Below, piece after piece: positions 45,127 to 47,194 of a DNA stretch of 64,000 bases. Under the pieces are notes generated by a model. It saw only the letters and a program-made list of their open reading frames with translations, was not told the origin of the DNA and did no database searches. The number at the start of each line of letters is the position of its first letter. The stretch's first letter is position 1. Position numbers and translations under genes: made by a program. The DNA comes from Gemmatimonadaceae bacterium (GTDB taxonomy: Bacteria; Gemmatimonadota; Gemmatimonadetes; Gemmatimonadales; Gemmatimonadaceae): contig JAIEMN010000008.1 of the NCBI GenBank assembly GCA_019752115.1, positions 1-64,000 on the forward strand. The letters are read 5' to 3'.

Positions 45127-45786
45127 ATGGCGCAGGCATCCCGTTCCGCCCAGTCCTCCGCGTCCAGTGAGGACGCTCTCGAGTCGCTGTCTACGTGGTT
45201 CCAGACGAACAGCAAGCTGATCGGTGGTGTGATCGGCGGCGCCGCGGTGGTTGGCGCGCTGATCGTGGGCTACCGGAGCTGGAGCGGCTCGACGCGTGAG
45301 AAGGCGTCGACGGCGCTGTACCAGGCGCAGGGCGCGTTCGCCGAGGGCAAGTGGGCGGAAGCCCAGTCGTCGCTCGAGAAGGTCGCGACGCGATACTCGG
45401 GCACCGCCTCGGGGCAGCAGGCGGCCGTGCTGGCGGCGCAGGCCATGTACGAGCAGAAGAAGTACGACGACGGGATCAAGGCGCTCGAGAAGGCGTCGGC
45501 CGGCGCGTCGTCCGACTTCAAGTCGGCGATCGAGGCGCTGATCGCGGCCGGGTACGAGATGAAGGGGTCGTGGAACGACGCCGCGACGCACTACGCCAAG
45601 GCGGCCGACGCGGCGCCGTTCCCGGCGGACAAGCACCAGTACCAGGCGTCGCAGGCCCGGAGCCTTCAGGCGGCCGGCAAGACGGCTGAGGCCAAGAAGC
45701 TGTGGGAGACGCTGGCGGCCATCGACGGCGACCCGGTGCAGCAGGAAGCGAACGTCCGCCTGGGCGAGCTGAGCGCGAAGCCGTAA
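45127..45786 (+). CDS. Membrane-anchored TPR protein (YfgM-like)
   Basis: The 219-residue protein has a single membrane helix (about 31-49, LIGGVIGGAAVVGALIVGYR) after a short cytoplasmic tail, then tetratricopeptide-like repeats in the periplasm (about 60-215; for example YQAQGAFAEGKWAEAQSSLE). YfgM, the E. coli relative by layout, assists envelope protein export. It is the last plus-strand gene before the terminus. Confidence 0.75.
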   Translation: MAQASRSAQSSASSEDALESLSTWFQTNSKLIGGVIGGAAVVGALIVGYRSWSGSTREKASTALYQAQGAFAEGKWAEAQSSLEKVATRYSGTASGQQAAVLAAQAMYEQKKYDDGIKALEKASAGASSDFKSAIEALIAAGYEMKGSWNDAATHYAKAADAAPFPADKHQYQASQARSLQAAGKTAEAKKLWETLAAIDGDPVQQEANVRLGELSAKP

Positions 45787-45793
45787 CCCGGTT

Positions 45794-45827
45794 GTTCACA
45801 TGACGCGATCTCGCGTCGGAATGTGAC
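45794..45827 (+). other. Imperfect hairpin after the TPR gene
   Basis: TCACAT-GACGCGA and TCGCGTC-GGA-ATGTGA can pair with a 2-base loop and a small bulge. It directly precedes the terminator at 45829. Confidence 0.5.
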
Positions 45828-45828
45828 G

Positions 45829-45868
45829 AGGCGGCCCGGTCCACATGGATCGGGCCGCCTTTACTTTT
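45829..45868 (+). terminator. Intrinsic terminator after the TPR gene
   Basis: AGGCGGCCCG pairs with CGGGCCGCCT and is followed by TTACTTTT. It ends plus-strand transcription at the chromosome terminus. Confidence 0.85.
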
Positions 45869-45993
45869 GTGAGCGGCGACCTGGCCATGATTGCCATCGC
45901 TCACGGATCGGCGTGGCCAGCATATATCCACGAGAGGGGAGATGGTCACACTTCTGAAATGAGACGCTTTGCTGTGCATATCCGGCAATCATT

Positions 45994-46021
45994 AGTGCGC
46001 ATAATACATGTTATGTAAACT
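45994..46021. other. dif: Chromosome-dimer resolution site dif
   Basis: The 28-base site has an 11-base left arm AGTGCGCATAA (one change from the E. coli XerC arm GGTGCGCATAA), a 6-base centre TACATG, and an 11-base right arm TTATGTAAACT, identical to the B. subtilis XerD-type arm. XerC/XerD recombine here to resolve dimeric chromosomes. Genes converge on this point from both sides, and the surrounding DNA is AT-rich for this genome, both typical of the terminus. No xer gene is in the window. Confidence 0.9.
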
Positions 46022-46269
46022 AAAGATGGTGGATAACTGTGGGAAAGTTTGAGGAGATTCCCACGCCAGCCTGCACAAAACTGTCTAACCGATTGCAGTA
46101 CATTCTTTTACGATAACCCCGATAGCCCAGACTGCTCCTCGGGAATCACGGATGGTCAAAGTGTCCACCTCTCCACATTCCGATTGGTGATCTGCGAACC
46201 GTGGGCAACCGGCCACCAACGTTGGTGTACGCGTCGCCCGATTCACGCCCGCTTTTGGGCGTTGTGGAG
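46022..46269. other. Gene-free AT-richer region beside dif
   Basis: No gene is supported here. The frames of 84 and 69 codons that exist lack family resemblance and ribosome-binding sites, and lie on opposite strands of the same DNA. The composition is clearly richer in A and T than the flanking genes, as at many termini. Confidence 0.6.
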
Positions 46270-46314
46270 AAAGAAAAAAGTGCGAATCGCTCATCGGTCG
46301 TGAGCAATTCGCAC
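46270..46314 (-). terminator. Intrinsic terminator after dapF
   Basis: GTGCGAATCGCTCA (46280-46293) pairs with TGAGCAATTCGCAC (46301-46314). On the minus strand it is followed by TTTTTTCTTT, so it ends leftward transcription from dapF. Confidence 0.88.
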
Positions 46315-46357
46315 GGTGTGGAGACTCAGGTTTTGTGTTCAGCCTGACTCGCGTGGC

Positions 46358-47194
46358 TCAGCCCAGCTGGTCGATCTGCCCGTGAAAGACGACGCGTCCT
46401 TCGCCCTGGAGCGTGGGCTGAAAGCCCGTAGGGATGGGCGTGAGCCGCACGATGAGGTCGCGCCCGGAACTCGTCCGAATCGTCACCGAGGGGCCCGCGT
46501 CCAGCCCCCAGGTGGCCAGCAGGATGGCCGTCGCGATCGCGCCCGTGCCGCAGGCCTGCGTCTCCCCCTCGACGCCACGCTCGAAGGTCCGGTAGCGCCA
46601 CCGGCCGTCGGGGCGCCGAGACACCCAGTTGACGTTGGCCCCCGCCGAGCCGGTGCTGGGATCCCACCGAAGCCCCGGTCCGCGCCCCTCCAGGTCCACG
46701 GCGTCGGCATCCTCGCACAGAATCACCAGGTGCGGGATCCCTGCCGTCGCGTACCCGATGCGCAGCTCGCCCGGGACCGGGGCGATGGGCATGCGTGGGC
46801 TGATATCGCTGACCGGCTGGAAGTCGATCTCAGGCAGCGCCCCCACTCGGCTGGTGATCAGGCCGGCGCCGGTGGACAGCCGCATCCCGTCGACGCTGCC
46901 GAGGCCGACGGCCGCCGAGAGGGCCGTCGAGCACAGGGTGGCATTGCCGCACAAATCTGCCGGCGTACCATCGCTGTTGAAATAATGGATCTGGACGTCC
47001 GCCCCGTTCGACACTGGCTCGAGAACGACGATGCCGTCCGCGCCTATCCCGTTGTAGCGATTGCAGATCGCTTGAATCGCCTGAGGCTGCGTGACGAGCG
47101 CCCGCGAGACCGTCCGACCGTCGAAGAAGACGAAGTCGTTCCCCGAGCCGGTCATCTTGGTAAACGGCAGACCACACAGATCTTTGATGTCCAC
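46358..47194 (-). CDS. dapF: Diaminopimelate epimerase
   Basis: DapF converts LL- to meso-diaminopimelate for lysine and peptidoglycan. The 278-residue protein has FTKMTGSGNDFV (11-22), catalytic Cys82 in DLCGN and Cys215 in ACGTGA. The segment after the first Cys reads CGNATLC where most enzymes have CGNGxRC, so an Arg is missing there. The start is GTG 47194 with GGGGAG upstream. It is the last minus-strand gene before the terminator and dif. Confidence 0.93.
   Translation of the reverse strand: MDIKDLCGLPFTKMTGSGNDFVFFDGRTVSRALVTQPQAIQAICNRYNGIGADGIVVLEPVSNGADVQIHYFNSDGTPADLCGNATLCSTALSAAVGLGSVDGMRLSTGAGLITSRVGALPEIDFQPVSDISPRMPIAPVPGELRIGYATAGIPHLVILCEDADAVDLEGRGPGLRWDPSTGSAGANVNWVSRRPDGRWRYRTFERGVEGETQACGTGAIATAILLATWGLDAGPSVTIRTSSGRDLIVRLTPIPTGFQPTLQGEGRVVFHGQIDQLG

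Follow-up and report, generated by a model that had tools for sequence, protein, structure and literature searches.

The dif site of a bacterial chromosome is usually viewed as a 28-bp sequence that is controlled via FtsK. The locus described here raises the question of whether the working site in the phylum Gemmatimonadota is longer than this, and of what the additional sequence might do. The window (the whole stretch of 64,000 nucleotides that was analyzed) consists of positions 1-64000 of a 128,915-bp contig, C8, in a genome assembly (G000) that is 97% complete. A preliminary description of this DNA had recognized a dif site in it. We found this to be right, but conserved elements beside dif had been overlooked.

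The dif site and its intergenic gap

On re-reading the positions, we found the 28-mer AGTGCGCATAATACATGTTATGTAAACT at exactly 45994-46021, where it had been placed. It divides into AGTGCGCATAA-TACATG-TTATGTAAACT, with a XerC arm and a XerD arm in the 11-6-11 layout. The site and the genes that border its gap are as follows.

45127..45786, plus strand: gene for a TPR-like protein, left border of the dif gap (ORF; named by inspection only)
45994..46004, plus strand: XerC-side arm of dif, AGTGCGCATAA, a single base off the E. coli XerC arm
46005..46010, plus strand: central hexamer of dif, TACATG, nearly invariant among genus members
46011..46021, plus strand: XerD-side arm of dif, TTATGTAAACT, kept throughout the phylum
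46358..47194, minus strand: dapF (diaminopimelate epimerase), convergent on dif (ORF; named from its sequence by inspection)

As previously described, the gap itself (45787-46357) is gene free and AT rich, and the genes on either side converge; its GC content is 53.9%, compared with 67.8% for the window. No Rfam match reaching the gathering score, and hence no RNA element, was found in the gap. The single-base difference between the left arm and the E. coli XerC arm (GGTGCGCATAA) holds when compared on strain MG1655. The right arm we take to be identical to that of B. subtilis.

A relaxed dif pattern (at most three mismatches) matches the window only at 45994-46021 and had 0 matches in 100 dinucleotide shuffles. 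Throughout the genome (5,171,001 bp, 83 contigs), the site itself, again with at most three mismatches, likewise has one match, as expected of a single-copy site, and the reversed site, used as a control, has no match anywhere in the same 5,171,001 bp. Nearly all of 29 relatives searched from the same genus carry one dif with the hexamer TACATG; one relative has two, both located on short contigs. Named genomes that share this dif and its flank are those of Gemmatimonas sp. and other Gemmatimonadota. We conclude that 45994-46021 is the single chromosomal dif of a Gemmatimonas-like bacterium.

The earlier remark that dif is rarely annotated in such genomes is fair, yet the site had already been predicted in this phylum. 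When only one Gemmatimonadetes genome was available, Kono et al. 2011 predicted a dif site in it, and we claim no novelty for dif as such (PMC3025954). Their site is from the same phylum and of the same kind as that in the window; their report covers one genome only, and a flanking element was not found in its text (PMC3025954).

Position at the chromosome terminus

The genome that contains the window is fragmented, and we placed the terminus by using three relatives in the genus with complete genomes. Each of these is a single contig in which dif is opposite dnaA, as proposed, at a distance of 42-45% of the chromosome: dif is at 2,121,490 and dnaA at 499 in a chromosome of 4,716,552 bp (G028), at 1,930,286 and 449 in 4,636,964 bp (G021), and at 1,421,887 and 3,688,209 in 5,179,092 bp (G029). 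A switch in GC skew at dif had also been anticipated, and this was borne out in part. Across 40 kb on each side, the skew changes sign in all of G028, G029 and G021 (the three changes being 0.071 to -0.036, 0.073 to -0.016 and 0.025 to -0.047), but the contig of the window shows merely a decrease, from +0.058 to +0.010, with its sign unchanged.

The FtsK-orienting 8-mers (KOPS) GGGNAGGG converge on dif, which agrees with the polarity that had been predicted. In contig C8, 22 of 24 copies point toward the site (toward/away: left 9/0, right 13/2; Fisher p = 4e-5). The corresponding counts are 33/6 and 25/4 in the complete relative G028 (p = 4e-9), and 6/0 and 9/0 in G029. For GGGCAGGG taken alone, the ratio is 59:1 toward dif.

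The recombination machinery is encoded as well. Both XerC (on contig C82; TIGR02224, 338 bits with a cut-off of 335) and XerD (C8:65337-66287; TIGR02225, 358 bits with a cut-off of 330) score above curated NCBIfam cut-offs, which answers the check proposed in the preliminary description, and an FtsK with alpha, motor and gamma domains is present. The site thus resembles the dif/XerCD/FtsK systems of E. coli and B. subtilis in its 11-6-11 layout, its XerC-type left arm and XerD-type right arm, its XerC, XerD and FtsK-gamma proteins, its KOPS polarity, and its terminus position.

We made two side observations on chromosome organization. In all four genomes of the genus examined, the xerD gene is on the same side of dif as dapF, at a distance of 17-21 kb. 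Also, in a complete genome from the same order (G225), parB and dif are separated by only some 26% of the chromosome, so its replichores are unequal, or parB has moved.

A conserved box array beside dif

Alignment of the genus shows that conservation does not end with the XerD arm. Six bases past this arm, at 46028-46046, is the sequence GGTGGATAA-C-TGTGGGAAA, and a further pair of boxes lies in inverted orientation downstream.

46022..46027, plus strand: spacer AAAGAT, free in sequence (column identity at chance level), of nearly fixed length in the phylum
46028..46036, plus strand: box 1, GGTGGATAA (genus alignment), lattice position 28/29
46038..46046, plus strand: box 2, TGTGGGAAA, lattice position 38/39 in most Gemmatimonadota; phylum consensus TGTGG[AG]NAA
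46161..46178, minus strand: inverted box pair, reading ATGTGGAGAGGTGGACAC on the minus strand (genus alignment; plus-strand consensus CTGTNCACCTGTCCACAT)

In the genus, a variable 6-bp spacer is followed by the block [G/C]GTGGATAA(C/G)TGTGGGAAA, which is conserved as strongly as dif. The inverted pair is nearly 170 bp past the dif start in the window and up to about 190 bp past it in relatives. The genus alignment shows no conservation on the upstream (XerC) side of dif.

The array is also specific to this place in the chromosome. In all eight genomes searched in full, the only exact copy of GTGGATAA(C/G)TGTGGGAAA is at dif; three of these genomes have one extra match with two mismatches away from dif. 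The tandem lattice GTGG[AG]NAA-N2-GTGG[AG]NAA occurs once per dif region and nowhere else in the approximately 1.27 Mb examined. In one part of the order, family f2 (for example, G290, G145 and G143), a further conserved block, approximately TCAGTTAATCACAC, is present a few bases past box 2.

Helical phasing across the phylum

We searched for similar arrays in two ways. A box-selected scan of 84,980 species required a dif core followed by GTGGATAA within 4-20 bp, and yielded 115 stretches, about half from Gemmatimonadota (judged by record title or sequence). Spacing to the box is 8-9 or 18-19 bp in the Gemmatimonadota matches and scattered in the others. For an unbiased scan, we used the dif core alone in 395 Gemmatimonadota genomes and read the next 45 bases; 75 sites were retained among the matches listed, with near-identical neighbors thinned by eye.

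Of the 75 sites kept among the matches listed, 69 have GTGG[AG]NAA in the 44 bp that follow on the XerD side, and about 8% are without a clear box; the sites share ancestry, and these counts are not independent. Composition shuffles of the same 75 sites among the matches listed gave a mean of 0.56 sites with a box and a maximum of 5. As a control, we used the order to which Larsenimonas belongs (Oceanospirillales-type Gammaproteobacteria): none of 46 dif sites from it has a box, and the dif flank of E. coli MG1655 has no box array. Gemmatimonadota dif thus differs from that of E. coli in its phase-locked array on the XerD side.

The boxes keep a strict position. Counted from the first A of ATAA in the dif core, the 86 box starts in the 75 sites among the matches listed fall at 28/29 (n = 24), 38/39 (n = 59) and 48 (n = 2), with one at 36. 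Under a looser box rule, 28 of the 75 sites among the matches listed have both boxes, 38 the second only, and 8 the first only. Identity among the sites in the matches listed is at chance level in the spacer (0.29) and in the stretch after the boxes (0.28), compared with 0.56 in the box core. The boxes therefore form a lattice with a 10-bp period that keeps its register with dif, although the spacer between them is free in sequence. Such a pattern, with position held and intervening sequence free, is of the kind that a protein complex of fixed geometry leaves, although the sites share ancestry. A fixed-phase accessory sequence adjoins the dif core here, as cer/psi-type Xer sites require.

This phasing bears on other functions that the array might have. 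A polar replication-fork barrier with a Tus/RTP-like function, which would cause forks to meet at dif, would be expected at the terminus, and the array is there, oriented and on one side of dif only. However, known fork traps are distributed across many kb to either side, unlike this single-sided array that is bound to the phase of dif, and we consider a barrier quite improbable. It is still harder to credit the array as a place beside XerD at which FtsK gamma docks or is unloaded. The array is on the XerD side, and gamma activates XerD directly (PMC5052618), but the polar FtsK motif in these genomes is GGGCAGGG-like and does not resemble TGTGG[AG]NAA. Moreover, gamma uses one and the same surface to bind KOPS DNA and to contact XerD, so a single gamma domain cannot hold KOPS-type DNA and XerD together (PMC5052618).

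The array next to dif was previously unreported, and it is the part of this work that we consider new: our search of the open-access literature revealed no link of DnaA boxes or of any accessory element to chromosomal dif.

Gene neighborhood

The gene dapF is the nearest gene on the array side, and converges on dif, in 69 of 75 Gemmatimonadota loci, a set that differs from the 75 scan sites and in which some loci were fetched via a query containing the box. In these 69 loci, the dapF end is 32-590 bp from dif. Because this distance is variable, the boxes are tied to dif and not to dapF. The dapF homologues at dif share 42-70% protein identity (the window's own locus was left out). Among the six remaining loci, two (L012 and L029) have fewer than 180 bp on the array side, and a third (L177) has about 200 bp. 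The adjacency of dapF and dif across Gemmatimonadota is an unusually stable case of terminus synteny; in E. coli, dapF belongs to the xerC operon.

Integrative elements in other bacteria use dif-like sites (PMC5357621), and the 28-mer could in principle belong to a plasmid or mobile element (a pdif or phage attachment site) rather than to the chromosome. We give this almost no credence, given a single copy that is vertically conserved with dapF through the phylum and on which KOPS converge.

Proposed role of the array

We think it probable, although well short of certain, that dif and the XerD-side array together form a site whose accessory part is bound by a sequence-specific protein that shapes or licenses synapsis. 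XerC and XerD, activated by FtsK, would convert chromosome dimers to monomers at the terminus dif. The working site in Gemmatimonadota would exceed 28 bp, including one to three DnaA-box-like 9-mers, TGTGG[AG]NAA, past the XerD arm. With these boxes spaced by one helical turn and keeping register with dif, an accessory protein could bind them beside XerD along a single face of the helix. The bound protein might contact XerD; in this genus, the inverted pair could instead allow contact with a second protein cluster. The resulting complex may shape or license the synapse much as ArgR and PepA do at plasmid cer, but from the XerD side.

Plasmid cer and psi sites (ArgR or ArcA, PepA) likewise have an Xer core flanked by sequence-specific accessory DNA. 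In cer, this DNA is on the XerC side. The cer accessory DNA is about 180 bp and plasmid borne (PMC5357621), whereas the Gemmatimonadota array is chromosomal, is located on the XerD side, and has a different motif. Since the phylum keeps the array in helical register with dif, an additional partner of chromosomal Xer recombination is implied. The array site is short, unique and directly testable, and it makes dif, and hence the terminus, easy to find in draft genomes of Gemmatimonadota.

Candidate binding proteins

Box 2 reads TTNYCCACA on the other strand, which is close to the DnaA box TTATCCACA. Its most common 9-mers in the 75 sites among the matches listed are TGTGGAGAA (23), TGTGGACAA (15), TGTGGGAAA (9) and TGTGGATAA (6). 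The commonest, TGTGGAGAA (= TTCTCCACA), differs from a canonical DnaA box, neither box in the window's genus is perfect by this standard, and the boxes at dif are mostly imperfect. DnaA of the genus has domain IV with an intact GGRDHSTV motif. Also, a perfect TTATCCACA, conserved in the genus, is located in the dnaA promoter region between TTGAC and GGTACCTT (for example, at G000:C20:96581 and G028:C1:85). It is the only perfect TGTGGAYAA in the 65-110 kb around dnaA in four genomes, and likely serves dnaA autoregulation.

Because the array boxes are near TTATCCACA, domain IV is intact, and the promoter box is perfect, DnaA, or a protein with a DnaA-type DNA-binding domain, is our first candidate for the array binder, although another protein could equally well fill this role. 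The dif array shares with DnaA-box arrays (oriC, datA, DARS) its 9-mers near TTATCCACA and its tandem and inverted pairs; it differs in being at dif and in register with it, and in that the third base of the box is free and the fourth is C or T.

These similarities also suit an ordinary dif beside which a DnaA titration or inactivation site (datA/DARS-like) has become fixed, with no role in Xer recombination. Some boxes match DnaA boxes exactly (TGTGGATAA, TGTGGACAA), and the genus has box pairs in both orientations. Such a site would need neither helical register with dif nor a spacer of near-constant length and free sequence, and we consider it improbable. Titration, a fork barrier and FtsK docking all account for the phasing less well than does an accessory protein acting at dif.

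Were DnaA the accessory protein, the initiator would be linked to both termination and dimer resolution. We entertain only tentatively the more specific idea that Gemmatimonadota couple dimer resolution to initiation in this way, with DnaA or a domain-sharing paralogue on the phased array licensing or delaying XerCD/FtsK recombination; as it stands, we regard it as rather unlikely.

We looked for oriC boxes for comparison. No cluster of at least three boxes in 400 bp was found in the 65-110 kb around dnaA in four genomes, nor was a box cluster found in the surroundings of parB, so the dif boxes could not be matched to oriC boxes. A TGTGGATAACTGTGGATAA pair downstream of parB in G072 was rejected as oriC: it falls within sequence that encodes a signal peptide and is missing from other genomes. 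For lineages with other boxes, dnaA was absent from the twenty contig starts examined. The boxes are not KOPS: they have another motif and face away from dif. Nor, by inspection, does their motif correspond to an ArgR site.

A protein of 587-654 amino acids with two DnaA ATPase domains is encoded in each of the seven genus members examined (for example, G000:C83:1820-3784 and G028:C1:1881547-1883310; loci L127 and L111); in three complete genomes, its distance from dif is about 240-290 kb. We rejected it as the binder: Pfam shows no domain IV in the two that were read, and without this domain the protein cannot recognize the boxes in the usual way.

Similar sites outside the phylum

Metagenome-assembled genomes of Peregrinibacteria/Peribacteria type contain a near-palindromic dif-like sequence, TTAACATAA-N6-TTATGTTAA, followed by TGTGGATAA at 11-14 bp (L142, L146, L151, L153, L215, L217, L224, L234 and L246; the taxon of the last three was judged from sequence only). 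If chromosomal dif is indeed coupled to DnaA, this combination would be a second, independent case. Some of these sites also have TTATCCACA on the other side.
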